A DNA stretch of 64,000 bases from Lachnospiraceae bacterium (GTDB lineage: Bacteria; Bacillota; Clostridia; Lachnospirales; Lachnospiraceae): contig JAFZLD010000021.1 in the NCBI GenBank assembly GCA_017553505.1, forward strand, positions 62,001 through 126,000. Reading direction: 5' to 3'. The notes under the pieces were generated by a model. The model was not told the origin of the DNA, did not search any database, and saw only the letters and a program-made list of their open reading frames with translations. Made by a program: the position numbers and the translations under genes. Of this stretch, positions 3,761 through 44,530 are shown in pieces (position 1 is the first letter of the stretch; each line of letters begins with the position of its first letter).

Positions 3761-3877
3761 GGGGTAACAGCGATGTCCTTCCCCAATTTTAAACATTAAT
3801 ATACAGAAAGGTATAAGTAATCTCCCGGAAAAAACCATTTGGCCGGGAAGGATGTCGCCGTTACTCCCTGTGAAAAT

Positions 3878-6225: not shown

Positions 6226-6280
6226 GGAATTAATTGAAAACCTTTTTGCCAATTGGTAAAATAATCTTGGGAGTATAGTT

Positions 6281-7348: not shown

Positions 7349-7351
7349 TCG

Positions 7352-8341: not shown

Positions 8342-8391
8342 TACGGGACGGAAACGTCCTGCCTATATATCCAATTCAGGAGGAATTAAAG

Positions 8392-8805: not shown

Positions 8806-8856
8806 TTTGGGGACAATTCGGTACTTAGGGAAATCTATTAAAACGGAGGATTGCTG

Positions 8857-9840
8857 ATGAAACCCGATAAACTGATTGAATTATGCAAGAACAAAGTAGT
8901 ATGGATTCAGACCCATAATTTTCCCGATCCCGATGCGATTTCCACAGCTTTCGGACTCCAGAAACTTCTGGAAGAATACAATATTGATTCAAGAATCTGC
9001 CACGAAGGACAGATAGATAAGTTATCAAGCGTGAAGCTTCTTACTCTTTGCGGAATCGAGATGAGTCCGTATGACACTATTGTAAATGAGATGAAGCCTG
9101 ACGATATGATAATTCTGGTAGATTGTCAGAAGAACAACGGCAACACCACAGATTTTGTAGGTGACGAGCTCGCGGCAATCGACCATCATCCCACGGTAGT
9201 GCAGATAGATTACGAGTATTCGGACTTACGAATTACAGGAGCTTGTGCTTCCATTATAGCCGAGTATTATAAGGATTTGGATTTGGTTCCCGAGACTAAG
9301 GTAGCTACGGCTCTTATGTACGGTCTCAGAATGGACACACTTCAGTTAAGCCGCGGTGTTACGGAATTTGATATAGATATGCTGGGATTTTTATTCCCGT
9401 ATACGGACAGAAAGCTTCTTGCGGAGCTTGAGACCAATAACATGGAGTTCACCGATTTAAGAGCGTACGGTGAGGCTATCGAGAATGCGAGAGTATTCGG
9501 TAAGGTATGCTTATCCTTCCTCGATTTCATTTGTCCCGATGCGCTTGTTGCGGCGCTTAGCGATTTCTTCCTTGCACTTGCAGAGGCTGAGGTCGTAATA
9601 ATCTTTGCGAAACGCGACGGCGGATATAAGTTCAGTTTCAGAAGCGAACGTTCCGACGTTAATGCGGGCACTCTTGCGGCTGAGGTACTTGAAGGCTGGG
9701 GCAACGGTGGCGGACATGCCTCCATGGCAGGCGGCTTTGTTGCCAATGATAAGTTCCCGTCAACAGATATGTATCTGTTTGATGCTGTTCAGGAGAAAGC
9801 AATCGGCTTGATTAAGGAAAAGTATCCGCAAATATTGTAA
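8857..9840 (+). CDS. DHH/DHHA1 family phosphoesterase (NrnA-like)
   Basis: A 327-residue phosphoesterase of the DHH superfamily, which includes nanoRNases and PAP phosphatases that recycle short oligoribonucleotides and could finish degradation of pGpG from c-di-GMP. Motifs are visible: THNFPDPDAIS near the N-terminus, VDCQ, the DHH box AIDHHPT, and the C-terminal DHHA1 glycine loop GNGGGHASMAGGF. The ATG at 8857 is preferred to the TTG at 8851 because it lies seven bases after GGAGG. The exact substrate cannot be told from sequence. Confidence 0.85.
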   Translation: MKPDKLIELCKNKVVWIQTHNFPDPDAISTAFGLQKLLEEYNIDSRICHEGQIDKLSSVKLLTLCGIEMSPYDTIVNEMKPDDMIILVDCQKNNGNTTDFVGDELAAIDHHPTVVQIDYEYSDLRITGACASIIAEYYKDLDLVPETKVATALMYGLRMDTLQLSRGVTEFDIDMLGFLFPYTDRKLLAELETNNMEFTDLRAYGEAIENARVFGKVCLSFLDFICPDALVAALSDFFLALAEAEVVIIFAKRDGGYKFSFRSERSDVNAGTLAAEVLEGWGNGGGHASMAGGFVANDKFPSTDMYLFDAVQEKAIGLIKEKYPQIL

Positions 9841-9857
9841 GTCATAAAGGGGGAATT

Positions 9858-10493
9858 ATGACGGAGAATATTACTGTATTCAAACACAACAGCATTAAGA
9901 TTGCTACTGAAGTCGGCGCAATCTACGTCGATCCGTTTGAAATGGACGCAGCGCCTCATGATGCTGCGTTTGTGCTGATTACACACGATCATTACGACCA
10001 TTTCTCGGTTAAGGACATTGAAAAGGTAGTCAATAAGAATACCGTGCTAATCGTACCCAGGAAGATGGTGGAGAAGGCACGTGAAGCCGAGTCACTAGTG
10101 GCTAAGATTGAGACTGTTAAGCCTGAAATTTCTAAGAACATTGACGGCCTCGAGCTTGAGACTGTACCTATGTACAATATCATGAAGCCTTTTCATCCGA
10201 AGGCAGCTGAATGGGTCGGCTACATTGTTACGGTTGCCGGCAGGAGAATCTACATCGCAGGCGACATCGATGCAATCAAAGAAGCCAAGGACGTTAAGTG
10301 CGACGTGGCACTGGTTCCCGTAGGCGGCTTCTATACAATGGATGCCAAGAAAGCGGCGGGACTGGTTAACACCATGAAACCGAAGGTTGCGATTCCCGTG
10401 CATTACGGCAATTTGGTCGGAACTGCCAAGGACGGCGAAGAGTTCGCCAAGCTTGTAAAGGAACCGACTAAGGTTGAGGTTAAAATAAAATAG
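9858..10493 (+). CDS. Metallo-beta-lactamase fold hydrolase
   Basis: A 211-residue MBL-fold protein of the UlaG/YtnP-like short type. The metal-binding motif HxHxDH is seen as THDHYDHFS, and further ligands are likely at AGDID (about residue 135) and the late HYGN. GGGAATT precedes the ATG. Substrates of such stand-alone MBL proteins are usually unknown. It is the last + strand gene before the converging diguanylate cyclase gene, with a shared hairpin between them. Confidence 0.8.
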   Translation: MTENITVFKHNSIKIATEVGAIYVDPFEMDAAPHDAAFVLITHDHYDHFSVKDIEKVVNKNTVLIVPRKMVEKAREAESLVAKIETVKPEISKNIDGLELETVPMYNIMKPFHPKAAEWVGYIVTVAGRRIYIAGDIDAIKEAKDVKCDVALVPVGGFYTMDAKKAAGLVNTMKPKVAIPVHYGNLVGTAKDGEEFAKLVKEPTKVEVKIK

Positions 10494-10509
10494 AAAAACG
10501 CATAATAAT

Positions 10510-10537
10510 AGCGCCGGCTTAACCAAAAGCCGGCGCT
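10510..10537. terminator. Bidirectional hairpin between convergent genes
   Basis: An 11-bp perfect GC-rich stem (AGCGCCGGCTT and its complement) with a six-base A-rich loop lies between the convergent MBL-hydrolase and diguanylate cyclase genes. The U-tract is weak on both strands, but position and stem strength suit a shared terminator. Confidence 0.65.
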
Positions 10538-10553
10538 GATTCTATCTTCAGAA

Positions 10554-11852
10554 CTATTCTTTGTCTTCCTCAGGAATTTCAGCCACAATCTGGTTACGGC
10601 CGTGTTCCTTACCGTAGTAGAGCTTGGCATCGGCGGATTCGACGATGGCTTCGACATCACCGGAAGTACCGGCGCTTACACCCATGGTCATGGTAATCTT
10701 GATTTCATATCCTTCGGTGTAGACTATCATCGCGCGGATGTTGTCCGCGAGGCCTTCCAGAATCTTGACGGAATCTTCAACGTTTGAACGATCGAATATG
10801 AGAACGAATTCCTCGCCGCCCCATCGAGCTGCGAAGCCATTACCGATCATGGCTTTCTTAAGCTGGGAGGCGACTGCTTTCAGTACTTCGTCACCTGCGT
10901 TGTGTCCATAAGTATCGTTAACCTTTTTAAAAAAGTCGATATCGCAGATTGCAACGGAGAACGGGACACCGGTCATTTCTGAGCGGGCCGCTATTCTTGT
11001 AACCGCGGAATGTACGTAACGACGGTTGTTAAGGCCTGTAAGAGGGTCGGTCTCAACAGAGGCGCGGATGCTCTTGGCCATCTGAATAGAGGACTTCGTA
11101 ATATCACCGAGCTCGTCGGTTCTGCGTATGCACTCGGGAGGCATTTCGGCCGAAAGGTTACCGGCTGCGATACGTCCAAGGAAATCCTGAATCTTCTTTA
11201 ATGTATTGGTAACGCCTTTGGTGTATCCATAGGAAAAGAAAGCAACAAGCGCCATACCGGGTATAGCAAGAAGGAGCATGGGCCATACGGCGAGCATAAC
11301 TTTCTTCTTTATTTCGGTTGTTCTTTTGGCAACCTCGACCATACCTACCACAGAGTGATTGGAGTTACGGATGGGAGCGTAGTATACAAGGTATTCCTTG
11401 CCAAGGATGGGAACGTTCTTATAGAAGGCTTCGGCGCCGTTTCCGATAACCATGGCGGAAGTTTCTTCGTTGGCACTTATGCCGGAATAACGCTTTCCCG
11501 TCTCGGTCTTAAATGTGGTATGAACGCGTACATCCATGTATAGATACGAAACTTCGGTGTCGGTCTCACGAGCATAGGCATCTACGATTGAGTAGTCATA
11601 GGTGATATTCTCGTCGCCCTTGAATACGTCATATGTACCGCTTGAATTGGGTACAAGAGAGTAGTCACCCGGATAGGTCTTATCGTAGGTGATGATTATA
11701 TAGTGAGCCATGTCGGCCATATTGGTCTTAGTGGTGTTATAAAGGGTCTCCTTAAATCTAATGTAGCAAAAGATAGTCAGGGCTATTCCGAACAGAAGAA
11801 TCGGAACAACCGCGATGGTGAGCATCTTCTTGTAAATTCCCTTTTTTTTCAT
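10554..11852 (-). CDS. Membrane-bound diguanylate cyclase (Cache-like sensor, HAMP, GGDEF)
   Basis: A 432-residue enzyme that should make c-di-GMP from two GTP. It has an N-terminal membrane helix (about 10-30), an extracytoplasmic sensor resembling a single Cache domain (about 35-185), a second membrane helix (about 190-212), a HAMP-like linker, and a C-terminal GGDEF domain. The active-site motif reads RWGGEEF. The RxxD inhibitory site expected a few residues earlier is absent (the segment reads GNGFAAR), so product inhibition through that site is unlikely. The window contains two c-di-GMP riboswitches that this enzyme could feed. Confidence 0.9.
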   Translation of the reverse strand: MKKKGIYKKMLTIAVVPILLFGIALTIFCYIRFKETLYNTTKTNMADMAHYIIITYDKTYPGDYSLVPNSSGTYDVFKGDENITYDYSIVDAYARETDTEVSYLYMDVRVHTTFKTETGKRYSGISANEETSAMVIGNGAEAFYKNVPILGKEYLVYYAPIRNSNHSVVGMVEVAKRTTEIKKKVMLAVWPMLLLAIPGMALVAFFSYGYTKGVTNTLKKIQDFLGRIAAGNLSAEMPPECIRRTDELGDITKSSIQMAKSIRASVETDPLTGLNNRRYVHSAVTRIAARSEMTGVPFSVAICDIDFFKKVNDTYGHNAGDEVLKAVASQLKKAMIGNGFAARWGGEEFVLIFDRSNVEDSVKILEGLADNIRAMIVYTEGYEIKITMTMGVSAGTSGDVEAIVESADAKLYYGKEHGRNQIVAEIPEEDKE

Positions 11853-11865
11853 GTAACCTCCGCGC

Positions 11866-11905
11866 GATTGTGAAAAGCTTTACACAATCATCACCTCTCA
11901 TTATA
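11866..11905 (-). promoter_or_regulatory. Candidate promoter -10 and palindromic operator of the diguanylate cyclase gene
   Basis: On the - strand a TATAAT (complement of 11900-11905) lies upstream of the cyclase. Between it and the start codon is a gapped palindrome, GATTGTG-N10-CACAATC at 11866-11889, with an AAGCTT core. It falls at or just past the expected transcription start, where a repressor would block initiation. No convincing -35 is visible. It could instead form a 5'-UTR hairpin. Confidence 0.4.
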
Positions 11906-11983
11906 ACACAAATGAATTTACCAAAAGAAAATAGTCGGAAAATAGTGCATTTTGACGCTTGCGCATTGATAATAGCGGTGCTA

Positions 11984-11989
11984 TATAAT
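11984..11989 (+). promoter_or_regulatory. Candidate -10 box of the antiporter operon
   Basis: A perfect TATAAT sits about 40 bases before the preferred mnhE start. The upstream TTGACG (11952) is too far away for a standard 17-base spacer and TTGATA (11966) too close, so only the -10 is supported. Transcription would begin near 11996, leaving the GGAGG at 12014 inside a short leader. Confidence 0.4.
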
Positions 11990-12024
11990 TAAAGTTAGTG
12001 CTTAAGATTCTGTGGAGGATTGGC

Positions 12025-12495
12025 GTGTTTATACTGTTTTTTGTGTGTTGGATAGTCTTTAATCAGGCGTTCACTTTGGAAATCGCAATATTCGGTGTTG
12101 TATTGGCGGCGCTCATGCTTGCATTTGTGTGCCGATTTATGGATTATTCCATAAAGAAAGACTTTGTTTTGCTAAAAAAGTTCCCCGCAATGCTTGCATA
12201 TGCATTTGTTTTGATTTGCGAAATCGTCAAAGCCAATTTCAATCTCTTCAGACTTTTCTTTTTACATTCTAAAGATAAACGTGAGCCTGTCATGGTTACA
12301 TTCGAGAGTAAGCTTAAGACCCGCACCGCAAGAGTGTTTCTTGCCAACGCTATTACGCTTACGCCCGGTACCATCACTGTTAAGGTGAAAGGTAACAAGC
12401 TCACGATTCATTGCTATGACAAATCTCTGGCAAAAGGCCTCGATAATACTATATTTGAAAAGAAACTTTTGAAACTTGAGGAAGGGTGGGACTAG
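12025..12495 (+). CDS. mnhE: Cation/proton antiporter subunit E (MnhE/MrpE)
   Basis: A 156-residue membrane protein of the MnhE family, a small subunit of Mrp-type multisubunit Na+/H+ antiporters and related membrane-bound hydrogenases. Two or three N-terminal helices are followed by a soluble part with the typical RVFLANAITLTPGTITV motif. The GTG at 12025 is chosen because a perfect GGAGG lies six bases upstream; the frame is open from a GTG at 11998 that has no ribosome-binding site. It is the first gene of a ten-gene operon. Confidence 0.88.
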   Translation: MFILFFVCWIVFNQAFTLEIAIFGVVLAALMLAFVCRFMDYSIKKDFVLLKKFPAMLAYAFVLICEIVKANFNLFRLFFLHSKDKREPVMVTFESKLKTRTARVFLANAITLTPGTITVKVKGNKLTIHCYDKSLAKGLDNTIFEKKLLKLEEGWD

Positions 12496-12498
12496 CGT

Positions 12499-12828
12499 AT
12501 GAGTATTGAAGCGTTCTATGAAATATATGGCGTATTTGCTACGGTAGCCCTTATCGTTCTCGGTATTATTGCGCTTTTGTGTCTGCTCAGAGCGATAATC
12601 GGTCCGACACCCGCGGACAGAGTAGTGTCCATCAATATGCTCGGTACTATTACGATGTCGATGATTGCGATACTTCTTGTTAAGCTTCGCGAAGGGTATC
12701 TTGCCGATATCTGCCTTATTTACGCACTTATATCGTTCCTTGCGGTGATAGTTCTTTGCAAGGTTTACGTCGGCGCTTACCTTACGAAAAAGAAAGTGTT
12801 GGAGGAGCGAAAGAATGGAAACGGTTAA
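12499..12828 (+). CDS. mnhF: Antiporter subunit F (MnhF/MrpF)
   Basis: A 109-residue protein with three membrane helices and the MnhF signature RAIIGPTPADRVVSIN after the first helix. It is an accessory subunit of the Mrp/Mbh-type antiporter module. It starts three bases after mnhE and overlaps mnhG by 14 bases, which shows tight translational coupling. Confidence 0.9.
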   Translation: MSIEAFYEIYGVFATVALIVLGIIALLCLLRAIIGPTPADRVVSINMLGTITMSMIAILLVKLREGYLADICLIYALISFLAVIVLCKVYVGAYLTKKKVLEERKNGNG

Positions 12829-13174
12829 TCTTATCAGACTGATAATCGGATGCCTTTTTATCACTCTCGGAATCGGCGGCTTTCTTGTTGAAGTGTTGGG
12901 AGTGTATAGGCTTAAGTACGTGCTCGACAGAATGCATTTTGCGGGCAGCGGCGACACGCTTGCTTTTGCCGAGATTATACTGGGCGCGGTTATTATAAAC
13001 GGTTTTGATTTCACAAGCGCGAAGCTTGTGCTTGTACTTATATTCTTCTGGTTCGCATCTCCGGTTTCGAGCCATTTAATTTCAAGGCTTATCAATTATA
13101 CCGAGGAGAACAAGGAAGAGCATTTCCATGTATGCGACGAGGAAGAATCACGTCAACTCATAGACAAAGAATGA
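12815..13174 (+). CDS. mnhG: Antiporter subunit G (MnhG/MrpG)
   Basis: A 119-residue protein with three membrane helices. The region RLKYVLDRMHFAGSGDTL followed by a helix and FFWFASPVSSHLISR matches the MnhG/PhaG family. The C-terminal tail is acidic. It lies in the conserved E-F-G order of Mrp operons. Confidence 0.9.
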   Translation: METVNLIRLIIGCLFITLGIGGFLVEVLGVYRLKYVLDRMHFAGSGDTLAFAEIILGAVIINGFDFTSAKLVLVLIFFWFASPVSSHLISRLINYTEENKEEHFHVCDEEESRQLIDKE

Positions 13175-23853: not shown

Positions 23854-23863
23854 AATAGATAAG

Positions 23864-23949
23864 CGGAGTCGGAGGGATTCGAACCCTCGTGCCCCGGAGG
23901 GCAAACGCATTTCGAGTGCGCCCCGTTATGACCGCTTCGATACGACTCC
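23864..23949 (-). tRNA. tRNA-Ser (anticodon CGA)
   Basis: On the - strand a seven-base acceptor stem GGAGTCG pairs with CGACTCC, followed by discriminator G. The T arm reads GAGGGTTCGAATCCCTC, a perfect five-base stem with TTCGAAT. The anticodon loop CTCGAAA gives CGA, decoding UCG. There is a long variable arm (GCCCTCCGGGGC-like), as expected of a class II tRNA-Ser. CCA is not encoded. The total is 86 bases. Confidence 0.93.
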
Positions 23950-24047: not shown

Positions 24048-25223
24048 ATGAGGAGGAGTCCGAATTACATTCTTAAAGAAATGCAAGGACACTATTATCT
24101 TATCCCCTTTGGGCAGGCAAGCGCAGATTTTTCAAAGGATGTTGAGGTCAATGAAGTCGGTGCGTTCATATGGAAACTGCTTGAGAACGATATGGAGGCA
24201 TCGGAAGTTGTGGATGCCTGCATGAAGGAGTATGAGTGTCCGCCCGAGCAGTACGACAACGTGAAGGCTGTTGTGGAGACTTTTTTTGACCAAATGTTTG
24301 AGGGCGGACTGCTTGTTTGGACCATAAAGCGTAAGCCGCTTCACGGCGATATTCTGCGTAAGTATGCCATCGCAGGCTTTAATGTGCATGTTACCGGAAG
24401 CCCGGATATAGATTTGTCCCCCTTGAATGATTACATTGCCAAGAGAATAAGGCCGGCGGATACACTGACGGTTAATATGGTGCGATTTACCAGAGAAGAA
24501 ATTGCTGAGAAAAGTGCAATTACCCCAGGTGAGACATTTATAACACAAAACGAAGCAGCGAATATTTACAGAGGTCCTTACGGATACAGGCTCGAGATTA
24601 AAGATTGCCAAAATGTTGCGAGAATATTGATCAATGAAAAAGGCGACTATGCCGTTATCGAGTATACGGAAGGCGATATTTCGGAAATGAGTCAGGAACT
24701 GTTTCTGGCAATCCGTGTGCCTTTTACATATTTTGCGGCCAAACACGGGCTGATAGCCATTCATTCGGCTTCCATAGTATACAAAGGCAAGGGCTGGCTT
24801 TTCTCAGGAAGGGCCATGATTGGAAAGTCTACGCATACGAATCTTTGGAAAAAGTACGCGGGTGTAAAAATTTTTAACGGAGATATGAACCTTTTGGGTA
24901 TCGAGAACAGTCTTATACATGTGTACGGTATTCCGTGGTGCGGAGAATCAGGCATTTCGGAGCCCGGCAAATACCCTGTTGCGGGAATAACATTCCTAAA
25001 GCAAGCGCCCGATAATCGGGTTACGGAATTGATAGGCAACGAGAGGGTATTAAAGATACTGAGGAGACTTTTCTCTCCCCTATGGAATGAAGAACTTCTT
25101 GGAAACTATGTTTTTTTTGCTCAAAACATTGCGGAAACTGTTTGCCTGTGTGAGCTTGAATGCACCGCTGATAAAAGGGCTTTTGAAGTAATGAAATCTT
25201 TTATCGACGAACAGGTTTTGTGA
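24048..25223 (+). CDS. PqqD-type RiPP recognition domain fused to HPr-kinase-like domain
   Basis: A 391-residue protein. Residues 1-95 look like a PqqD-fold recognition element (the NEVGAFIWKLLEND and EASEVVDACMKEYECPPEQ segments are typical), the module that binds leader peptides in RiPP pathways. Residues about 210-390 resemble an HPr-kinase-like P-loop domain: AIHSASIVYKGKGWLFSG, then Walker A GRAMIGKST at 254-262 and FNGDMNLL in place of the usual SDD. In lasso pathways related kinases phosphorylate the precursor tail, but there the recognition protein is separate. Its neighbours are a leader-bearing protein and an exporter, so it probably acts on that protein. Confidence 0.75.
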   Translation: MRRSPNYILKEMQGHYYLIPFGQASADFSKDVEVNEVGAFIWKLLENDMEASEVVDACMKEYECPPEQYDNVKAVVETFFDQMFEGGLLVWTIKRKPLHGDILRKYAIAGFNVHVTGSPDIDLSPLNDYIAKRIRPADTLTVNMVRFTREEIAEKSAITPGETFITQNEAANIYRGPYGYRLEIKDCQNVARILINEKGDYAVIEYTEGDISEMSQELFLAIRVPFTYFAAKHGLIAIHSASIVYKGKGWLFSGRAMIGKSTHTNLWKKYAGVKIFNGDMNLLGIENSLIHVYGIPWCGESGISEPGKYPVAGITFLKQAPDNRVTELIGNERVLKILRRLFSPLWNEELLGNYVFFAQNIAETVCLCELECTADKRAFEVMKSFIDEQVL

Positions 25224-25266
25224 TTTTGGGAAAATGTTACGTTTTCGTTAGAATTGTCTGAAAGCG

Positions 25267-25294
25267 TTGACACTTGATTCTCATGTGATATAGT
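25267..25294 (+). promoter_or_regulatory. Sigma-A promoter of the leader-bearing protein gene
   Basis: A perfect TTGACA (25267-25272), a 16-base spacer and TATAGT (25289-25294) lie 44 bases before the start codon. It gives the 150-residue protein its own strong promoter, separate from the kinase fusion upstream. Confidence 0.75.
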
Positions 25295-25337
25295 TTATAC
25301 AAGATTATAGGGGAAATGGTAGCGAAGGAGAATTGTA

Positions 25338-25790
25338 ATGGCAAAAGAATTTATCAGTCCAGCAATAGTGTCGTTAAGCCTTGAAGATACTGAAGGCTTC
25401 TTTTGCGTTCGTGGAAGCGGTCAAATTGATGAACCCAAGGGAGACTGGGATATCACTTGCAGATACGACGGACATAACACAGGTCACCACTCGGTAGTAC
25501 ATGTTCAGGCCAATCATCACGGCGATTATAGCGGTGAGTGCCTTACGATGACATTCAGACTTAATAACGGATTTAAGATGAAGGAAGTTAAGAACGCAAG
25601 CGGTACATGGGTAAGAAAGCTCTCCGAGAGCAGATTTACCATTACCAGAAACGGTCACTTCAATCCCACTGAGAGCGTTGGCTTCTGCTTTGAAATCGTA
25701 GTTGAAAACAGCCCTTATTACGGATCCATCGGTAAGACCGGTGAATACAGACCTTGCGATATTGAATGTGTGAGTTACACTTCGGCGTAA
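25338..25790 (+). CDS. Putative RiPP-type substrate: lasso-like leader on a CBM2-like domain
   Basis: A 150-residue protein with GGAG before its ATG. The first 20 residues match a lasso leader: KEFISPAIVSLSLEDTEG has F-x-x-P (compare the YxxP motif bound by lasso B1 proteins), hydrophobic residues in register, and Thr at -2 of Gly20. It aligns with the two precursors at 44172 and 44360, which have K-K-F, similarly spaced hydrophobics, D/E-T and also Gly20. The rest is a folded-looking domain with alternating hydrophobics (LTMTFRLNNGFKMKEV, then FNPTESVGFCFEIV) that resembles a CBM2-like beta-sandwich, and six cysteines in all. No Sec signal is seen. It is flanked by a PqqD-kinase and an ABC exporter. 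Confidence 0.6.
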   Translation: MAKEFISPAIVSLSLEDTEGFFCVRGSGQIDEPKGDWDITCRYDGHNTGHHSVVHVQANHHGDYSGECLTMTFRLNNGFKMKEVKNASGTWVRKLSESRFTITRNGHFNPTESVGFCFEIVVENSPYYGSIGKTGEYRPCDIECVSYTSA

Positions 25791-25821
25791 TTAAATTCTA
25801 TTTTTATATGACTATATTTCG

Positions 25822-25852
25822 GACGCACCACTGGTTCAGTGGTGCGTCTTTT
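25822..25852 (+). terminator. Terminator/attenuator between substrate and exporter genes
   Basis: A 12-bp perfect stem (GACGCACCACTG with its complement) with a three-base loop is followed by TTTT. The exporter start at 25863 lies ten bases on. It would keep most transcripts confined to the small substrate gene and let a minority read into the transporter. Confidence 0.85.
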
Positions 25853-25862
25853 GAGGCTAATA

Positions 25863-27644
25863 ATGCTTAAAAAAGTTAATCATTATGCCAAAAGAATAAA
25901 AGAAGGCCGACTGAAAGAAGTTATCGCGCAGTTAAAGTGGATTTACAGATATGCGCGGTCTCATAAGTTCGCGATAGGAATCTATACGCTACTAGGTTTA
26001 TCGGGAACAGTTGTATCTCTTTTGGGAAGCTTGGTTTCAAGAGACCTGGTAGATATTATTACCGGTCACAATACGGGTGCGCTCTTGACAACATTTTGCC
26101 TTATGATAGGCACGACCTTGGGAGGAACATTTATCGGACAGGCGTCCAGTTACATTTCTACCAAAGTAGGCATGACGGTTGACAATGAGATTAAGGCAAG
26201 CCTGTTTGACGATATAATGAATGTCGAGTGGGAATCGTTGTCCAAGTACCGTTCGGGCGAACTTGTCGCCAGATGGAACGGTGATGCATCCAGAATCTCT
26301 TCCGGTATCCTTAACATGATACCGAACCTTGTTATTTATATTTTCAGATTTTTCAGTTCTTTGATTTTGGTAATAAGATACGATGCTTCTTTTGCAATAT
26401 TTGCGCTTGCAGGCATTCCCATCAGCCTCTTTATTTCCAGAAGCAGTATGCGACGTATGCAGAAGAATAACATGGGTACGTTAAAGGTTTCTACGGAGCT
26501 TTCGGCGTTTAATCAGGAAACATTTGCGAATGTTCAGACGGTTAAGGCATTTGATATGCTTTCTTTGTACTCCAAGAGACTACGCGTCTTACAGAAGGAA
26601 TATCTGAACGTTCAGTTAAAATATCAGAAGGCAGAGATACTTAACGCTATTATTATGACTTTTGTATCGATGCTTGTTTCCTATTCCGCGCAGGGATGGG
26701 GAATTTACAAGGTGTGGAGCGGAGCCATTACATATGGTACCATGACAATGTTTATTACGTTGTCGACGACGCTTTCTTCCACAGTTAACAGTCTTCTCGG
26801 ACTGTTCCCTACTGCCATAGGTATAGCTAACTCGTCAAAACGACTTATGGATCTTACTAATCTTCCCAAGGAAGATTACGGTAACCGTGATGAGGTTAAG
26901 GCTTTCTTTGAGAAACATAAGGATGAGGGCGTGGGTTTGTCTATAAGAGACGTGACCTATGCGTATCCCAAAAGCGATATAGTATTTGAGAAAGTTTTTG
27001 CTGAAGCACATCCCCATGAAGTTGTTGCATTTGTAGGCCCTTCCGGCGAAGGAAAGACTACGATGTTAAGGTTTCTTTTGTCAATTATCCGTGCTCAGAA
27101 CGGTGAAGGATTTATATGTGCCGGTGACGGAACGCCCGAAAACGGCGGAGAATGTATGAAGTTGTCAGCTTCAGCAAGACAGTTATTCGCATATGTTCCG
27201 CAGGGCAACACCATGTTTTCGGGTACGATTGCCAGCAACATGCGTAACGTTAAGGAAGATGCAACCGATGAAGAGATAATCGAAGCGTTGAAGCTTGCCT
27301 GTGCCTGGAGATTTGTCGAGAAACTTCCCAACGGAATCAACAGCGAGATTATGGAGCGAGGCGGCGGATTCTCGGAAGGTCAGTCGCAGAGATTGTCTAT
27401 TGCGAGAGCTTTACTCAGAAAATCACCCATTCTTTTGCTGGATGAAGCAACATCTGCACTGGATATAGCAACAGAAAGGGAAGTATTAAAGAATATTATG
27501 TGCGATAATTACCCTAGGACCTGTATAGTCACTACGCACAGGCCTTCGGTTTTGAATGTTTGTTCAAGGGTATATTCCATAAGCGACAAGAAATGTACCG
27601 TCATGGACAAGGACGCAATCGAGAAGATGATTACGGATTTTTAG
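25863..27644 (+). CDS. ABC exporter (permease-ATPase fusion), RiPP/lasso-D type
   Basis: A 593-residue half-transporter. The membrane domain with about six helices occupies residues 40-320, and the ATPase domain has Walker A GPSGEGKTT, a signature reading FSEGQSQR (SEGQ in place of the common SGGQ) and Walker B ILLLDEATSALD. No C39 peptidase domain is present, so it would not cleave leaders itself. It resembles the exporter at 61344, which shares SEGQ and a YVPQGNT-x-FSGTI Q-loop region. It probably exports the leader-bearing protein encoded directly upstream. Confidence 0.85.
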   Translation: MLKKVNHYAKRIKEGRLKEVIAQLKWIYRYARSHKFAIGIYTLLGLSGTVVSLLGSLVSRDLVDIITGHNTGALLTTFCLMIGTTLGGTFIGQASSYISTKVGMTVDNEIKASLFDDIMNVEWESLSKYRSGELVARWNGDASRISSGILNMIPNLVIYIFRFFSSLILVIRYDASFAIFALAGIPISLFISRSSMRRMQKNNMGTLKVSTELSAFNQETFANVQTVKAFDMLSLYSKRLRVLQKEYLNVQLKYQKAEILNAIIMTFVSMLVSYSAQGWGIYKVWSGAITYGTMTMFITLSTTLSSTVNSLLGLFPTAIGIANSSKRLMDLTNLPKEDYGNRDEVKAFFEKHKDEGVGLSIRDVTYAYPKSDIVFEKVFAEAHPHEVVAFVGPSGEGKTTMLRFLLSIIRAQNGEGFICAGDGTPENGGECMKLSASARQLFAYVPQGNTMFSGTIASNMRNVKEDATDEEIIEALKLACAWRFVEKLPNGINSEIMERGGGFSEGQSQRLSIARALLRKSPILLLDEATSALDIATEREVLKNIMCDNYPRTCIVTTHRPSVLNVCSRVYSISDKKCTVMDKDAIEKMITDF

Positions 27645-27751: not shown

Positions 27752-29581
27752 ATGAGGAAGTCAATTAAGAAATTTTGCATGTTTCTTATTGCGGCAATTT
27801 TTATGGGCCGCGTGCTGATTAATGACATCGCATATACCAGAGCAGACAGCCTTTCGGAAGAGTCGCAGCCCGCAGTGGAGACTACTGTTGATGAAGCAAC
27901 AGGTGAGACTCCCGCGACTGAAGCTGTAGTTGTGAATCCGGATGAGCTGATTAATGTTGATGAGGAGGACGTTCCGGAAGCACCCGCACCGGTTACGGAT
28001 CCTGAACATAATGAAGACGTATCTTCCAACAATGAAGAAGATGTTACGCCTGTAGCAGACGTATCAGACAATGAACCTGTCGGCGATCCCGCAGGCGAGG
28101 ATGTGTCAGGTAGCGAGCCTGCAATTCAGGGTGACGTATCCGACAATGATGAGCCTGCAGTTACTCCCGGTGAAAATGATGTAACCGGTAATGAGCCTTC
28201 AGAGGATGTAACAGGCAATGAACCTTCGGAAGATGTTACCGGCAATGAACCGGCAGAAGAAGTTATTGTGCCTGATACTACGCCCCATACAGCTCAGTTC
28301 TATATTGTTGTACAGGCAGAGCTTGCTAATATCACTCCGGAAGTAACCGGCAAGGAACCCACCAACAATCCCGCGGCCAAGTACAAGGATGCCAAGATTT
28401 CCAAGGGCGGCAAGACCTTTGAACAGGTTATCAAGGAAGCTGCCGGCGACATCAAGAAGATTGATGCTGCCGTAGGTACCGCCAGAGCCAAGTTTGTGTT
28501 CCCTGCAGAGTACGCAGGCAACATTTCTGTAACAGAGTTCCTTGGCTCCAATAAGGTATATGAAGAGGGCGCATCTGCCGAATCCATCATTGAAGATGTA
28601 TTTGGCGTTAAGCTTAACAACATCGGAACATATTACAGCGAATTGAACGGAAACACCAAGACCGGAAACATTATTTATGCGTACGGTAAGATGCTTGACT
28701 GGTATGTTCTTAAAGATATGAACCAGCAGTATTGGCACGTAGACGGTTTCTATAATACTGCCAAGGTATATGTTGCTGATAAATATAAGTCATTTGGCGA
28801 AGCCGAAGAATATGAGTATAACGGCGCGTCCAAAGCTTCCGAGGTAGAAGCGGCCATAAAGAGCGCAGCTGAAGGCGTTGCAAGCGCACTTCCCGGAGAA
28901 CTTGTAATACAGAACATTTTGTATTACGATTCCGAGAACAATCCTTCGGAAGTAATTGAAGCGGGCACATACAAGGCAGTTGCGACTGTTAAGTATGTAT
29001 ATAAGGTTGAGGGAATTGATTTATATCATGACTTCTATTGCGAGAGCGATGCTTTCCCTGTAGAGTTCCCGATAACAGTTAAGGCGGCATCGGAGCCTAC
29101 ACCTACTCCTACGCCTACCCCCACGCCTACACCCACACCTACACCCACTCCTACACCCACGCCGACCCCTACGCCGACGCCCACTCCTACACCTACACCG
29201 ACCCCTACGCCGGAGCCTACACCTACACCTACTCCCGCTCCGGTACCCACACCTACACCGGTACCTGCACCTGCTCCCGAGCCTGAAGAGGTAGTTGAAG
29301 AGGAGCCTGTACCTACTGTTGAAGTAATTGAGGCAGTTGAGCCTGTTGAAGGCGAGAGCGAGGATTCTGAGCAGAAGGGACTTGTAATCGGTGACGGAGA
29401 TGTTCCGCTCTTTGACGGAATGGATATCACAGAAGATGAAGCTCCTTTGGCAGCTTTTGAAGGCGAATGCTGGATTCACTGGTTGATTCTTCTTTTGACT
29501 GTAGTATATGCCGCTTATGTAGTAATTCAGGCTATCAGAAATCGTAAGACTATTGAGTTGCTTACAGAAGAGGAGGAATAA
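27752..29581 (+). CDS. Large secreted, membrane-anchored surface protein with Pro-Thr repeat stalk
   Basis: A 609-residue protein. It has an N-terminal signal sequence ([18 protein letters not shown], about 6-25) and an acidic low-complexity region (30-175) containing three copies of a DVTGNEPSE unit. An unrecognised folded region follows (about 180-345), including a segment with [14 protein letters not shown], then a second Ig-like stretch (350-445). A PTPTP stalk spans about 447-506, and a C-terminal membrane helix ([19 protein letters not shown]) is followed by a basic tail. It has a GTGAGG site before the ATG. It is followed three bases later by a small membrane protein gene. Topology is clear; function is unknown. 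Confidence 0.7.
28168..28262 (+). repeat. Tandem DVTGNEPSE-coding repeat
   Basis: Three consecutive nine-codon units encode DVTGNEP(S/A)E in the acidic region of the surface protein, preceded by looser DVSDNEP and DVSGSEP forms. The copies differ at third codon positions, so the repeat is old or selected at the protein level. Confidence 0.75.
29094..29270 (+). repeat. Pro-Thr codon tandem repeat
   Basis: About 25 repeats of a six-base unit CCN-ACN encode an alternating PTPTP stalk with a few Glu, Ala and Val interruptions. Third positions vary, but length change by slippage is plausible. The opposite strand reads as an artefactual Gly-Val ORF. Confidence 0.85.
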
Positions 29582-36283: not shown

Positions 36284-37891
36284 ATGAAGATGAAGAAAGA
36301 AAGAGCAATCGGAACACATTTTAAAAGAGTACTTACTCTTATTGCGGCATTTGTAATTACATTCGCGCTGTTCCCACCGATGATTTCGGAAGCGGCAACC
36401 GATTCAGCCAAAGTAGCATTCCGGAAGGAAATAATAGGCATGCTTTGCTCAGCAGATGAGACCACCCATGATGTTTCCAAATATCAGCTTTCCGGTGCGG
36501 ATGTGAACGGCATCTTTGGAAATCTTAAATATGACGACGAAACCAAGTGGCTGGTAGCGGCATATTATTCCAACTTGTATCTTAACTATTCGGTTGAAGA
36601 TGGCTATGTAAAGAGTGTTAACCTTGAGAACGTAGATAGCGATGCACTGGCAAGGTACAACAGGCTTGTTGAGAATGTTAAGAAGATAAAAGACGGAATA
36701 GAGCCTAAGATGTCGAATCTTGACAAGATCATCTATCTTCACGACAGCATTGTAGAGCTTGCTACTTATCAGATGGTGGCATATGAATCCTATGGTGCCG
36801 GCGGAGTTCTGGGAGATAAAAAGGGCGTTTGTGCCGGTTATACCAAAGCTTTAAACCTTTTATTAATTGATCAGAATATTATAGCTACGTACATGCGAGC
36901 CCCTTCTATCAGTCATGGATGGACTTCGATCTATCTTGACGGCGAATGGTATCATATCGATTCTACCTGGGATGATACCAGAAGCGCCAAGAAAGGGCAG
37001 ACTTCACATCAGTTTCTTTTGCGAAATGACAGCGAATTCGTAACCAATGACAATAATTCCCATGTGGCATGGGAAGTGTACGATTTTGACTTTGAATATA
37101 CATCGACATCAACGCGCTTTAGTAACTGGTATGTTCATGACATAACAGGCAAGATGGCCTTTGAAAACGGGTACTGGTACTACGTAGATTCCGGGACCAA
37201 CAGTATTATGCAGAACACTGCGGAGGGCGGCAATGCCAAGGTTATTCTTGACGGAACAGGCAGGGGAACGATTACACTCGTAGATGCAACCCCAAGCGGA
37301 ATTACCTATCTGGAAAACGGAACGACCAAAACCGCAGGGTATGAAGCAAATACGACTCAGAATAATACAACTGTAACAGGTACCAAGGCAACCGTATATC
37401 TGGCCAAAGAAGGAAGCTCGACCTATACCGCAGCAGGAACCGCAATGCTTAAAGAAGCCAAGACCAGCAAGAACAGTGATGTGGTGACAGGTAATATTCT
37501 TTCGCTGCCAAACCTCAGTAAATATGTTGCAAGTAACCAGTACGTTAAATGGACAGCTATAACAAAATCCTCTTCGGGAAAGTTTTCTTTGAAGGGAACG
37601 ATTTATACATCCGCGGTACAGAATGAGCCGGTAGTCGAAGAAGAGACTGTCAAGCCGACTGTATCAGCTACTTTCTATCTAAAGGGAATAGGTTCAACAT
37701 CGTACAAAGAAATCGGAAAAGGCTTATTATACAAAGATGAGACAAGCAGCAATACTGCCAAGATTACAGCCAATATCGGGCAGCTCCCCAATGTGTCATC
37801 TTACCTTAAAGACGGTGAGTATATAGTGTGGACCAAGATATCCAAGTCCTCAAGCGGAAAGATCAGCGTCAAGGGCGAGATAAGAAAATAA
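36284..37891 (+). CDS. Secreted transglutaminase-like protein, c-di-GMP controlled
   Basis: A 535-residue protein with an N-terminal signal (VLTLIAAFVITFALFPPMISEA). The transglutaminase-like (PF01841-type) core has Cys183 in GVCAGYTKAL, His211 in SHGWTSIY and Asp226 in HIDSTWDD, the usual catalytic triad. The C-terminal half has two similar beta-rich modules (the KATVYLAKEGSSTYTAAGTA and SATFYLKGIGSTSYKEIGKG stretches, each ending in KW/WTKI-SKSSSGK). It may crosslink or cleave surface proteins. The riboswitch upstream ties expression to c-di-GMP. The paralogous arrangement at 40 kb suggests a family of such genes. Confidence 0.85.
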   Translation: MKMKKERAIGTHFKRVLTLIAAFVITFALFPPMISEAATDSAKVAFRKEIIGMLCSADETTHDVSKYQLSGADVNGIFGNLKYDDETKWLVAAYYSNLYLNYSVEDGYVKSVNLENVDSDALARYNRLVENVKKIKDGIEPKMSNLDKIIYLHDSIVELATYQMVAYESYGAGGVLGDKKGVCAGYTKALNLLLIDQNIIATYMRAPSISHGWTSIYLDGEWYHIDSTWDDTRSAKKGQTSHQFLLRNDSEFVTNDNNSHVAWEVYDFDFEYTSTSTRFSNWYVHDITGKMAFENGYWYYVDSGTNSIMQNTAEGGNAKVILDGTGRGTITLVDATPSGITYLENGTTKTAGYEANTTQNNTTVTGTKATVYLAKEGSSTYTAAGTAMLKEAKTSKNSDVVTGNILSLPNLSKYVASNQYVKWTAITKSSSGKFSLKGTIYTSAVQNEPVVEEETVKPTVSATFYLKGIGSTSYKEIGKGLLYKDETSSNTAKITANIGQLPNVSSYLKDGEYIVWTKISKSSSGKISVKGEIRK

Positions 37892-37949: not shown

Positions 37950-38213
37950 TCAGATAAAGTTATATTCTTCCATCTTACCGAGGAAATCCATTACGGACTG
38001 CGTACAAACCTCACGACTTACATCGTATTCGGCAAGCAGTCTCTCAACTATTTCATTGGGAGAAATCTCTTCGCCGAGCATATCCCAGATATCGTTGCCG
38101 CATCCTTTGATGATGAAGTACTTACCGGTTTCAAAATCAACCATAACCTTTTCGCCGTCAAGCTCTGTGACATTAATGTCCTTGGTAAGCTTGATCTTCT
38201 TATCCATTTCCAT
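37950..38213 (-). CDS. PqqD-like RiPP recognition protein (lasso B1 type)
   Basis: An 87-residue protein that is the full length of a PqqD/lasso B1 domain. It has DGEKVMVDFETGKYFIIKGCGNDIWDMLGEE followed by a helix-turn-helix (SPNEIVERLLAEYDVS), the classic order of beta strands and recognition helix. In lasso-peptide pathways such a protein binds the leader and delivers the precursor to the B2 protease. It is encoded 25 bases after the B2-like gene on the same strand, which supports the pairing. Confidence 0.85.
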   Translation of the reverse strand: MEMDKKIKLTKDINVTELDGEKVMVDFETGKYFIIKGCGNDIWDMLGEEISPNEIVERLLAEYDVSREVCTQSVMDFLGKMEEYNFI

Positions 38214-38238: not shown

Positions 38239-38682
38239 TTATTTGCTGAACTTGTCAACCATTGCATAACCTTCGCCGTTACCTCCGGTTATGTACTTCT
38301 CCCCGCATCTGAGCCAGGAATGAGCGACCATTTTCTTGTCCTGGTCGTAGCCACAGCCTAAGTACAATGTGCTGTGTATTCCTTTCTTGGCAAGGAGAGT
38401 CTGAGCTGTCCAGGCTCTTACGAGACACTTGCTCTCCCAGGAAGTCTTACCGCATACCTGAGATACGTTGTAAGACACCTTCCAGGCGTATGTATAATGC
38501 TCTTCAGTGTCCGTAGCGGGCGATTCAACGCCTCTTTCTCCCCAGTTGTCCTTGAGCTTTTCCGTATTCATATGAAGAATTTTAAATCGATAAACGGCGG
38601 AATAATACCAGCACTGAAGTGAAAGCCATTTATCATTGTTGTAGCGGAAAAATCGATAAACTCTGGTAAAAGGGTTACGCAT
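38239..38682 (-). CDS. Lasso peptide B2-type transglutaminase-like protease
   Basis: A 147-residue member of the lasso B2 family (PF13471-like). It removes the leader from the precursor before cyclisation. Cys86 in WESKCLVRAWTAQTLL and His121 in VAHSWLRCG are the catalytic pair, and the C-terminal ITGGNGEGYAMVDKF matches the family. The ATG at 38682 is chosen because GAGGTGG precedes it; the frame extends to 38703. Its gene precedes the B1-like gene. The two together are divergent from the tail-kinase gene. Confidence 0.85.
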   Translation of the reverse strand: MRNPFTRVYRFFRYNNDKWLSLQCWYYSAVYRFKILHMNTEKLKDNWGERGVESPATDTEEHYTYAWKVSYNVSQVCGKTSWESKCLVRAWTAQTLLAKKGIHSTLYLGCGYDQDKKMVAHSWLRCGEKYITGGNGEGYAMVDKFSK

Positions 38683-38715
38683 AACCACCTCATAATAATA
38701 CAAAATTACGATACG

Positions 38716-40112: not shown

Positions 40113-40124
40113 GTGTGTTTTACG

Positions 40125-40159
40125 AAACTTGCCGAAGTGGAGAATAGGCAAGTTTTTTT
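40125..40159 (+). terminator. Expression-platform terminator of riboswitch 2
   Basis: AAACTTGCC pairs with GGCAAGTTT across a 13-base loop and runs into a T-tract. It lies between the aptamer and the AGGAGG of the gene. Confidence 0.85.
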
Positions 40160-40205
40160 AATTTTAAACTCACTTCAGGATTTTTTTCAAACAGGAGGCG
40201 GAGTA

Positions 40206-42110
40206 ATGAAAAAATCAAGAAGATGTGGGTTGGGCACGACTATATGTCGGGGATTATTGTTTGTTTTGTTAGCAGTATGTTTCTCTACTGCACCTAAGGC
40301 ATACGCACAGGGTGGAGACCTTGCGAATGCAAATATCAATACGATTTCTGCATGGGAGACCGGATACATTGTAGACAAGACCGGAGCAGAAGATGTTAAT
40401 AAGCGCAGAATACGCACTAACGATTTCTATACGCTCGGACACGATCAGTACGAAGTATCTGTATCGAACAGTGAATTTACTGTAAGAGCTTTCTATTATG
40501 ACGATAACAAGTCTTTCTTGTCATCTGAAAAGTTATACGACGGTTACGTAATTACCAAGAGCGACAACGCCAAGTATGTAAGATTTGATTGCAGAAAGAA
40601 CGAATCCGAGAAGTCAATGTCTCTCGGACAGTTCGCAGCAGTTGTAGGCTCTAAGTTAAAAGTCAACTTCTCAGCAATTATTCAGCATGAATCGGCTTTC
40701 ATTATTGACGAGGAATATGTTGAAGAAGAGCACGAACTTTTTGATGAAATCAACGTAAAGTCTATTTCCGGCTGGACAGCAGCAGGTATGGACAGCAAGA
40801 CAGGTAAGGTTGTTACCAATAAGAGAAGACTTGTTTCCAACGACTATTTTGCTATTTACGATCAGACATTAAGTGTTTCTTTTAATAAGACCGGATTTAA
40901 AGTAGAAGTATACGAGTACGACAGCAATAAGAACTTTATAAAGATGACCGTTGCAACCAACGGTACTGAAATTGACGTAACAGATAAGACACGTTTTGTA
41001 AGATTTTGTTTGTACAGAACCACTAACGAGAAGAGCTTATCTCTCGGACAGTGGAGCTCATTATTTGGCCAGGGATTAACATTATCCGTAGAAGCTGAAG
41101 AAGCAACCGATAACGTATATGTTCCTGCACCTAAGGCAGCTCCTAAGCCTGAACCTAAACCTGCATCAACACCTCATGAGGCAGTTTACAATGAGATGAA
41201 GCAGATGCTTATGACCGGCGACATGACCCGTCATGATATTTCCAAGTATGGTTTGGATATTTATGAAGTAAGAGCCATTGCAGACGAACTTAAGCAGGGC
41301 GAAGGCTATTATTACTTTGCTAATTCAAACACTATGTTTTTAGGCGATTTCAGCCTTAAGAACAATATCTGCAACACCATGCGTTTTGAAGGCATGGATG
41401 GAGATTTCGTCAACAGATACAATCGTATGATGAAGACCTTGGAAGAGATTAAGTCCATGACTACTTCTCAGATGAGCGATCTTGATAAGGTTATTCTCGT
41501 ACATGAGTATATTGTTACTCATACATATTATGAAAAGACTTCTCTTACTATGGGTTGCGCAGGCGGTATCCTTGGCGACGGACACGGATTATGCACAGGT
41601 TTCTCAAGAGCATTTAACGCAGCTTTAAGATATATCGGTGTTGAAACCAGATATGCAAGCAGCGACGAAATGAATCACGCATGGAGCCTTGTTAAGATTG
41701 ACGGTCAGTACTATCACGTAGATTGTACATGGGATAATACCACAGAAGAGAAGAGCGGATATGTAGGACACAATTATCTTCTTGCAAGCGATACAAGATT
41801 TACTAAATCCATTCCCGGAAGACATTACAACTGGGTGGTAAGAGATGCCAATTACGCTTCAGACATTAAGCTTCCCGCTACCAGCACCAAGTTTGACAAC
41901 TGGTTTGTTCATGACGTAAAGAGCCTTATGGTTTATTACAATGGCTACTGGTATTATGCAAGCGGAAAGAGTGTTAAGAGAAGCGATGCGTATGGAAACA
42001 GCATGGCTACCGTTTTGACAGATACAGCTAACGTTAGTATAATAGGTGTGTCTCAGGGGAAATTACAGTACAAGGTTAACGGAGTAGTTAAGACACTTAC
42101 CTTAAAGTAA
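40206..42110 (+). CDS. Secreted transglutaminase-like protein with two repeated N-terminal modules
   Basis: A 634-residue protein; the start at 40206 follows CAGGAGGCGGAGTA (the frame is open from 40113, inside the leader). A signal peptide (about 1-40) is followed by two similar modules of about 110 residues, ending EKSMSLGQF and EKSLSLGQW, a Pro/Lys-rich linker, and a transglutaminase-like domain with Cys463 in GLCTGFSRAF, His491 and Asp506. A related EKSMSLGQW module occurs in the gene at the window end. It is under the second c-di-GMP riboswitch. Its relation to the 36 kb protein is close in the catalytic domain only. Confidence 0.85.
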   Translation: MKKSRRCGLGTTICRGLLFVLLAVCFSTAPKAYAQGGDLANANINTISAWETGYIVDKTGAEDVNKRRIRTNDFYTLGHDQYEVSVSNSEFTVRAFYYDDNKSFLSSEKLYDGYVITKSDNAKYVRFDCRKNESEKSMSLGQFAAVVGSKLKVNFSAIIQHESAFIIDEEYVEEEHELFDEINVKSISGWTAAGMDSKTGKVVTNKRRLVSNDYFAIYDQTLSVSFNKTGFKVEVYEYDSNKNFIKMTVATNGTEIDVTDKTRFVRFCLYRTTNEKSLSLGQWSSLFGQGLTLSVEAEEATDNVYVPAPKAAPKPEPKPASTPHEAVYNEMKQMLMTGDMTRHDISKYGLDIYEVRAIADELKQGEGYYYFANSNTMFLGDFSLKNNICNTMRFEGMDGDFVNRYNRMMKTLEEIKSMTTSQMSDLDKVILVHEYIVTHTYYEKTSLTMGCAGGILGDGHGLCTGFSRAFNAALRYIGVETRYASSDEMNHAWSLVKIDGQYYHVDCTWDNTTEEKSGYVGHNYLLASDTRFTKSIPGRHYNWVVRDANYASDIKLPATSTKFDNWFVHDVKSLMVYYNGYWYYASGKSVKRSDAYGNSMATVLTDTANVSIIGVSQGKLQYKVNGVVKTLTLK

Positions 42111-44171: not shown

Positions 44172-44333
44172 ATGAAGAAATTTGAAGTTGCAGAACTCGT
44201 AGTTTTAGATTTAGCAGATACAGCTTTCGGACCCAGCGATCCTACATTCGTTGACGATCTTAAGCACGCTGTAACCGATAACGACGGTAACATTCTTGGT
44301 TGGGAAGAAGAATACGGCCAGCCTAGGTCATGA
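44172..44333 (+). CDS. Lasso-type precursor peptide 1
   Basis: A 53-residue peptide with TTTGGAGG upstream. The leader (1-19) is MKKFEVAELVVLDLADTAF, followed by Gly20-Pro21. If the core starts at Gly20, Asp28 is core residue 9, giving the common G1-D9 nine-member ring, with a long tail that includes AVTDNDGNILGW and ends in Pro-Arg-Ser. A C-terminal Ser fits phosphorylation by the nearby kinase. Thr is at -3, not the textbook -2. The core start is inference; the homology with the next gene is plain. Confidence 0.75.
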   Translation: MKKFEVAELVVLDLADTAFGPSDPTFVDDLKHAVTDNDGNILGWEEEYGQPRS

Positions 44334-44359: not shown

Positions 44360-44530
44360 ATGAAGAAGTTTATTAATGCAGAACTCGAAGAGATCAAGAT
44401 TGCAGAAACCGCTATGGGACCTCAGAACCCTGAAGAGCCCGATGATGTAAAATATGCTGTAACCGATGAAGAAGGCAACATTCTTGGTTGGAGAGCTACT
44501 TTCGGTAACAACGGTACTAAGAGCGTTTAA
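44360..44530 (+). CDS. Lasso-type precursor peptide 2
   Basis: A 56-residue paralogue with AGGAGGAG at good spacing. The leader MKKFINAELEEIKIAETAM precedes Gly20-Pro21. Asp28 is again core residue 9, with Glu25-Glu26 as alternative ring residues. The tail AVTDEEGNILGW is almost identical to that of precursor 1, and the end (NNGTKSV) places Ser next to last. It follows precursor 1 by 26 bases in the same transcript. Two variants under one cyclase suggest a family of products. Confidence 0.75.
   Translation: MKKFINAELEEIKIAETAMGPQNPEEPDDVKYAVTDEEGNILGWRATFGNNGTKSV

Follow-up and report, generated by a model that had tools for sequence, protein, structure and literature searches.

A lasso-type leader on a predicted CBM2-like protein, encoded beside an RRE-kinase fusion: a putative variant of the LPP-type pathway in Lachnospiraceae

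The window analysed here is a 64,000-nucleotide stretch of the genome of a Lachnospiraceae bacterium (assembly GCA_017553505.1, contig JAFZLD010000021.1, positions 62,001 to 126,000 of the forward strand), and our subject is a cassette of three plus-strand genes at positions 24048-27644, all lying where a preliminary description of this DNA had placed them. The first encodes a 391-aa fusion (24048..25223) of a recognition element for ribosomally synthesized and post-translationally modified peptides (RiPP recognition element, RRE; PqqD type) with an HprK-like kinase, the second a 150-aa protein with a leader resembling that of lasso precursors (25338..25790), and the third an MsbA-like ABC exporter (25863..27644). 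The RRE part (residues ~32-89, 24141-24314) was recognized by Pfam PF05402 (PqqD) over residues 32-89, with 35.5 bits against a cut-off of 23.4 and an E-value of 1.2e-8, and a profile built from seven such fusions matched over positions 31-92 the structures of TbiB1 (5v1u, 8e-4), LppB (9x8z, 0.0025), PbaB1 (9x90, 0.033), and TfuB1 (6jx3, 0.43), which suggests an RRE of the lasso/LPP type resembling LppB and the B1 proteins. By sequence, the cassette appears to represent a new variant within the RRE-guided LPP/lasso group, with a folded CBM2-type cargo; it is unusual and widespread in Lachnospiraceae.

The 150-aa gene is preceded by a Shine-Dalgarno sequence (AAGGAG) and by a promoter-like site, TTGACA-16-TATAGT (25267..25294, plus strand, 11/12 matches), which is weak taken alone since the region contains 10 such sites against a mean of 8.9 in shuffles. 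The leader of its product reads FISPAIVSLSLEDTEG, and residues 1-19 (25338..25394) are those assigned to a lasso-type leader, with a proposed cut at T18-E19 / G20. When this leader and those of the two lasso precursors of the window (44172..44333, start MKKFEV, and 44360..44530, start MKKFIN, both on the plus strand) are anchored on the aromatic residue, F0, P/A3, the hydrophobic residues 5/8/10, T13, and G15/16 coincide in all three proteins, that is, at 7/7 positions. The likeness pointed out in the preliminary description is therefore upheld in substance, although the shared register counts from the Phe and not from residue 1, because in the 150-aa protein the F and T are shifted by one residue towards the C terminus relative to the lasso precursors. 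Downstream of the leader lies a conserved junction, Ser27-Gly28 (25416..25421), the SG following the leader motif in 90/90 of the related proteins collected (a loose pattern, written, as was that of the register, after the leaders had been read, so that the Fisher values for both are descriptive), and [YF]xxP occurs in the leaders of 86 of them. By analogy with Ser3 of LppA, Ser27 is a candidate phosphorylation site.

The remainder of the protein (residues 36-149, 25443..25784) is predicted by AlphaFold, with matching folds in the PDB, to be a CBM2-like beta-sandwich, as had been proposed from the sequence. The core is modelled as a domain of approximately 115 residues, and residues 1-33 have pLDDT values below 50 and no secondary structure, so that the leader stays outside the fold. 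Two cargo classes were both modelled as CBM2 folds with a leader of low confidence. The models drew on 13 and 21 sequences and reached moderate confidence (pLDDT 71.3 and 72.9); in the latter, a short strand occupies residues 22-25, inside the leader region. The window protein has no match to Pfam CBM_2 (PF00553); the cargos of loci L106 and L142 exceed the cut-off of that family and are the sole Pfam passers among the scanned cargos, none of which is above its cut-off in NCBIfam. Unlike the known cellulose- and chitin-binding CBM2 modules, the window protein stands alone, without a fused enzyme, and inspection by eye gave no sign of a Sec signal peptide on it. A match to DUF1521, an autocleaving domain, was dropped because it lies below the cut-off (17.2 against 23.6 bits) and the fold search gave CBM2.

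A search with the 150-aa protein in 250 genomes of the family found it in three, the window's genome among them, and a profile built from these three homologues matched 17 of 397 family genomes, a number that falls to 15 after removal of two spurious matches (L017 and L019, where L-numbers denote loci and G-numbers genomes), one a frame with stops and the other antisense to a long open reading frame (ORF). The homologues share a leader of the form ~M.kYekPvvl.n..laEGvYAaSG and then diverge. With a profile of this 28-residue leader, 26/397 genomes were matched, a count that includes a 20-aa frame in G121 and a partial one in G047. Among the fusion matches listed, 23 genomes reach E 2e-90 or better, and every one of them also has a leader match, the E-value line being the analyst's choice and at most four candidates having been scored per genome; in 20 of the 23 fusion and leader share a contig and are no more than 4 kb apart, in G135 they are 36 kb apart, and in G240 and G389 on different contigs. 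The genomic association on which the preliminary description had staked its reading is strong. Conversely, G047, G121, and G146 have a leader and no fusion at E 2e-90 among those matches. The tagged protein of G146 (L051:1504-1893) is a side case with a ubiquitin-like cargo (Pfam ubiquitin, E 1.3e-4; 22.1 bits, short of the 25.4 required), and no fusion was detected in this genome, which is 68% complete. Outside the family, the leader hidden Markov model (HMM) matched 2/291 genomes of the class, both of Lachnospiraceae, a search that divergent tagged proteins may escape.

Scanning a genome collection of 84,980 species yielded 93 relatives of the fusion, and the analysis continued with the 80 best loci. 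An ABC exporter is present in 79/80 of them, an LppS-like peptidase (SpI) in 59, and NTP_transf_5 in 45. The HMM recognized a leader protein in 64 of the loci, a number raised to 73 by reading, which added L138, L139, L141, L146, L148, L150, L153, L159, and L167; three of the seven loci left are contigs of ~4 kb (L127, L132, L133). The 90 cargos collected, L167 not included, fell into eight clusters of 69, 13, 2, and 2 members and four singles by single linkage at E 1e-3, which may chain, given that 69 of the 90 stand in one cluster. Between clusters 1 and 2 (400 sampled pairs), leader identity is 55.4% and cargo identity 22.0% (21.5% once the cargos are shuffled); within cluster 1 the values are 58.0% and 31.2% (shuffled 20.7%), and between the small clusters and cluster 1 they are 56.5% and 24.8%, slightly above the shuffled 22.9%. 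In 18 pairs of proteins with different cargo from the same locus, leaders are 70.5% identical and cargos 22.3% (shuffled 21.6%). The leader, far from varying freely, is a modular tag conserved separately from the domain, and its conservation goes beyond chance, as it is kept in many relatives. The 13 members of cluster 2 (e.g., L026:5405-5767 and L025:10366-10710 = L103/L104) carry the same leader on a Cys-rich cargo with the motif ~CDS.YM.GV...FGCLGCPA...CGL...SYD.DNG.R.P.WE..G, which belongs to no Pfam family in the three members scanned and frequently shares its locus with a CBM2-type cargo.

The closest described system is LPP (Popov et al., Nat Commun 20 May 2026, PMC13381572). According to the main text of that paper, LPP clusters lie in capsule loci of Bacillota and encode precursors of 35-200 aa with a YxxP leader and a variable C terminus, a discrete RRE, an HprK kinase that phosphorylates Ser3 of the core repeatedly, a SipW-like peptidase, LppS, that cuts the leader helped by the RRE, an NTP-transferase, and an MsbA-like exporter; RRE binding, phosphorylation, and leader cleavage are all demonstrated there experimentally. 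Most of this architecture recurs here, and the statement of the preliminary description that no system of such a shape had been described has to be given up. As far as the main text allows the comparison, both systems occur in polysaccharide loci, often together with lasso clusters, and share an RRE, an HprK-like kinase, and an MsbA-like exporter (the latter two judged here by sequence only), a conserved YxxP leader followed by a variable C terminus in precursors of 35-200 aa, an SpI-like peptidase in most Lachnospiraceae relatives, and NTP_transf_5 in about half. Nevertheless, the cassette is not simply an LPP, because its RRE is fused to the kinase (discrete in LPP), its leader logo differs, and the window cassette, unlike LPP clusters, lacks LppS, as do the window-type cassettes generally. 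The published logo is YxxPxVLxHQxIxFETxxS, whereas the Lachnospiraceae proteins have YxxPvvl...EGvYAaSG or the lasso type, and by eye the window leader departs from the LPP motif and its relatives have YxxP without FET. Moreover, the demonstrated LPP core has 45 residues, against CBM2-fold or Cys-rich proteins in Lachnospiraceae. A term search of the main text of PMC13381572 found no occurrence of 'Clostridi', 'Lachnospir', or 'folded'. An RRE joined to a modifying enzyme is also seen in the RRE-fused tailoring enzymes (PMC7470986, PMC12710340), in whose main texts the term 'kinase' is absent, and our literature search, in the main texts that it covered, found no described system with an RRE-HprK fusion or a folded RiPP cargo, LPP being the nearest. 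By analogy, the Lachnospiraceae system would most likely work like LPP.

The window differs from most relatives in its peptidase. The preliminary description had reported no protease, which holds for the cassette, but most related loci carry an LppS-like one and the window-type genomes mostly a lasso B2-type one. In the window, a lasso cluster starts approximately 10 kb past the cassette, with a probable B1 (discrete RRE, 87 aa, 37950..38213, minus strand; hhalign to the fusion RRE at E 1.2e-4 but with a probability of only 55.6) adjoining a B2-type leader peptidase (38239..38703, minus strand; Pfam Transglut_core3, 8e-16), an HprK-like protein (38854), a cyclase (42178), and the two precursors, which are close to the lasso precursors 1 and 2 of Lachnospiraceae bacterium YSD2013 published in PMC7533575. 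This B2 is the only PF13471 match in the window's genome at E 1e-4, and when the window B2 and C were compared with 81 sources, of which the window was one, each found a single ORF in a single source. Two secreted-looking transglutaminase-like proteins (36284-37891 and 40113-42110, judged from ORFs) flank B1/B2.

In 13 window-type loci (L090, L091, L105, L112, L120, L136, L138, L139, L141, L146, L148, L150, L167), no SpI was found within the fetched stretch, of which L090, L148, and partly L120 end at contig ends; L090, the YSD2013 copy, stands for the window's genome, which was used in its place in the whole-genome B2 search. Anchored on the aromatic residue, 10/12 proteins of these loci show 6-7 of the 7 lasso register positions with Thr at +13, against 0/70 proteins from the 59 SpI-bearing loci, and the L167 leader, read separately, also fits, which leaves L112 and L120 as the exceptions (11/13 loci). 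PF13471 is above its cut-off in the genomes of the same 11 loci and absent from those of L112 and L120; it is above cut-off in one of 14 SpI-bearing control genomes, hand-picked from the 59 loci (three more match under the cut-off), and in 10/190 family genomes, eight of them with an E-value no higher than 1.2e-15, counts that include the window's genome and that of L105. An SpI match anywhere in the genome was found in 14/14 controls and in 3/13 of the SpI-less set. In the kinase tree, the SpI-less loci fall in three places, and well-supported branches force at least two changes; L105, L112, and L120 form one clade in which L105 has the lasso-type leader and B2 and the other two neither, so that leader type and B2 change together inside one clade. 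In L105 (SIG300), Ala replaces the Pro of most other leaders in the lasso and the cargo leader alike. Leader type tracks the available peptidase, and because the two co-vary we propose that B2 acts in trans, so that in window-type cassettes the lasso B2 may be the enzyme that removes the tag.

Several observations weigh against this interpretation or parts of it. The lasso B2 and the macrolactam synthetase are not in the cassette and belong to a separate cluster 10-17 kb beyond, the absence of a cyclase from the cassette being as the preliminary description had it. An SpI match exists elsewhere in three of the 13 genomes (the window's, as one distant match on another contig, and those of L120 and L167), and the L167 genome carries B2 and SpI together. 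The SpI-less genomes are not independent: Butyrivibrio and its close kin account for 8/13, so that roughly three lineages underlie the switch. Pfam was the basis of the B2 calls, reading of the ORFs showed lasso precursors next to B2 in 5/10 genomes, and the B2 frame of the L141 genome has only 81 aa. Eight further SpI-less loci (L094, L095, L108, L127, L131, L153, L154, L163), several on short contigs and with genomes outside the B2/SpI search, have no lasso-type leader (Y-type or none found). The register features were picked after the leaders had been viewed, and since the lasso leaders beside B2 elsewhere were selected with a pattern already demanding the register, independence is limited to the two lasso precursors of the window; the T-E-G of the window leader is, furthermore, one residue shorter than the T-A-x-G of the lasso precursors. 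Two weaker full-length fusions, in G023 (6.3e-59, from a genome of 60% completeness) and G049 (2.1e-48), have no leader match, which makes the association 23/25 among the matches listed when they are added, and an extra short separate RRE-like ORF occurs in 17/80 related loci, where the fused RRE need not be the sole reader. Exporters of this type are not known to us to transport folded proteins of 130 residues. Finally, Popov et al. emphasise, in the main text, insulation between lasso and LPP pathways (PMC13381572).

In view of these points, it is conceivable, if somewhat unlikely, that the same kinase-exporter system operates with a window-type leader that is kept, or cut by another signal-peptidase-like enzyme, and that the lasso likeness is a matter of ancestry. 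The absence of SpI from the fetched stretch of the 13 loci would fit a leader that is kept, the kinship of lasso and LPP RREs would allow lasso-type leaders to be the older form, and the SpI-like domains elsewhere in three genomes would fit another peptidase; however, leader type and B2 agree in 13/13 genomes, the change within one clade included, in a family in which so few genomes have PF13471 above cut-off. The window's genome also holds a separate RiPP-like cluster (L170, contig C22:230001-250000, ~1577-13054) with three radical-SAM-like genes and an 87-aa PqqD-like protein (both judged by eye), two ABC transporters, and a 463-aa protein fusing a Peptidase_S24/SpI domain to NTP_transf_5, and this fused peptidase could act in trans too.

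For the kinase half, the alternative is a pseudokinase or another nucleotide-using enzyme, with the fusion serving only as chaperone or address reader, which we regard as unlikely. It would agree with the lack of any Pfam match in this half, Hpr_kinase_C included (NCBIfam gives weak matches), but the kinase-like region (residues ~226-345) contains a P-loop pattern in 81/81 fusions and NGDxN in 80/81, the window's included, and aligns by hhalign with the HprK-like protein 38854 of the lasso cluster (probability 95.8, E 7.3e-9), while the LppK kinase of the LPP system does phosphorylate, according to the main text of PMC13381572. The upstream PqqD-HprK fusion of the preliminary description is in this way borne out. 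PWCG, present in 81/81 fusions by construction, carries no evidential weight because it was itself the search pattern of the scan. RRE and kinase lie within one frame in 79/80 related loci. In the Butyrivibrio metagenome-assembled genome (MAG) of L148 (327-503), the first ~56 fusion residues stand in a 59-aa frame of their own, a frameshift or assembly error, and this piece, which overlaps the fusion, was left out of the 17 discrete RRE-like ORFs as an eighteenth. Two fusion loci (L157, L164) come from MAGs labelled uncultured Bacteroides and group with the Lachnospiraceae ones, these bins being probably mislabelled or mixed.

Much less probable is a leader that serves as an export signal for the ABC transporter alone, double-glycine-like, with the RRE-kinase acting elsewhere. 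The near-constant presence of the exporter in the fusion loci and the E-G near the leader ends speak for it; against it stand the [YF]xxP motif, which is that of solved RRE complexes, the leader match in all 23 strong-fusion genomes among the matches listed, and the exporter itself. The latter (Pfam ABC_membrane and ABC_tran; best NCBIfam match MsbA_rel, below the cut-off of that model) has no C39 peptidase domain in Pfam or NCBIfam, the NCBIfam peptidase-exporter models aligning only from their membrane region onward, and PADLOC gave six exporter matches, all across the ATPase part, and none for the fusion or the 150-aa protein. Its start is likelier the ATG at 25863 (593 aa), preceded by GAGG, than the listed GTG at 25839 (601 aa), which sits within a 13-bp hairpin (25821..25849, plus strand, -23.3 kcal/mol, z -5.25) between the substrate and exporter genes. 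The exporter of the preliminary description is confirmed, but the terminator placed before it is undecided between a terminator and a processing hairpin, with only four T after the stem and no entry in the terminator scan.

It is scarcely credible that the 150-aa protein represents a long-tailed but otherwise ordinary lasso precursor on which the lasso C protein closes the ring, despite its lasso-type leader and the Gly at core position 1, because Asp/Glu at core positions 7-9 was found in 0/9 lasso-leader cargos (GSG in the window protein) against 2/2 window lasso precursors, which marks the cargo itself as not lasso, and because a folded domain is predicted for the core. With paeninodin-type lasso pathways (HprK kinase, NTP_transf_5), the cassette shares the leader register F/W..P/A..L.L..TA.G, the RRE, the kinase, the exporter, and a lasso cluster in its own window, and it differs from them in its core, a folded domain without that acidic residue, and in having no cyclase.

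The surroundings of the cassette form a polysaccharide locus with numerous glycosyltransferase-like genes, judged from ORFs. The genome is close to YSD2013, listed as a ruminal bacterium in PMC7533575, and the cassette DNA is 96.4% identical to the YSD2013 locus L090, a value that drops to 86.9% from 28.7 kb onward, across the gene region of a 609-aa, secreted-looking protein encoded directly after the exporter (27752-29581), which contains an extended (PT)n repeat and, at its C terminus, a hydrophobic segment. On the other side, a minus-strand tRNA-Ser (cga) lies at 23863-23949, between a Wzy/NlpC-P60 gene and the cassette, with a perfect TTGACA-18-TATAAT site just upstream of it (23997-23968, minus strand). 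No NTP_transf_5 adjoins the cassette, the one in the window being at 60073-61341, 32 kb past it. Two related cassettes (L023 and L024, in G213 and G359) have neighbours that look, by eye, like PelF and PelG of Pel-type polysaccharide operons.

On balance, we hold it fairly probable that the cassette is a Lachnospiraceae variant of the LPP-type RiPP pathway with a folded CBM2-like 'core', for which homology and gene context suggest how binding, phosphorylation, cleavage, export, and glycan binding might come about in four steps. The fusion RRE would bind the 19-20-residue leader through F/YxxP, since it resembles LppB and lasso B1, for both of which structures with bound leader exist. The fused kinase, as LppK does, would phosphorylate a Ser near the leader junction, most likely Ser27. 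The leader would then be cut by the LppS-like peptidase in most relatives and, to judge from the co-variation, by the lasso B2 in trans in LppS-less cassettes with a lasso-type leader. Lastly, the MsbA-like exporter would secrete the protein, perhaps to serve the polysaccharide locus as a carbohydrate-binding protein of the matrix or the cell surface, and attachment to the surface glycan would be compatible with this locus and with the CBM2 fold.

The established role of RiPP leaders is that of a handle on short peptides. We tentatively suggest, short of even confidence, that in Lachnospiraceae the RiPP leader may have been turned into a general address system, independent of Sec, for folded proteins of the carbohydrate-binding and Cys-rich kinds, in which one RRE-kinase fusion reads an exchangeable tag and the tag adapts to the peptidase that the genome provides, LppS-like or lasso B2, the two pathways sharing a protease and not being insulated. 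Dozens of CBM2-type or Cys-rich proteins with the conserved leader lie nearly always beside an RRE-kinase fusion and an exporter, and LPP-type pathways may gain through them a product suited to expression, crystallisation, and glycan-binding tests, while the co-variation of leader and peptidase offers a testable case of protease sharing between lasso and LPP-type pathways. If true, this would be a route of protein modification and secretion in very common bacteria of the gut, the Lachnospiraceae of gut and rumen.

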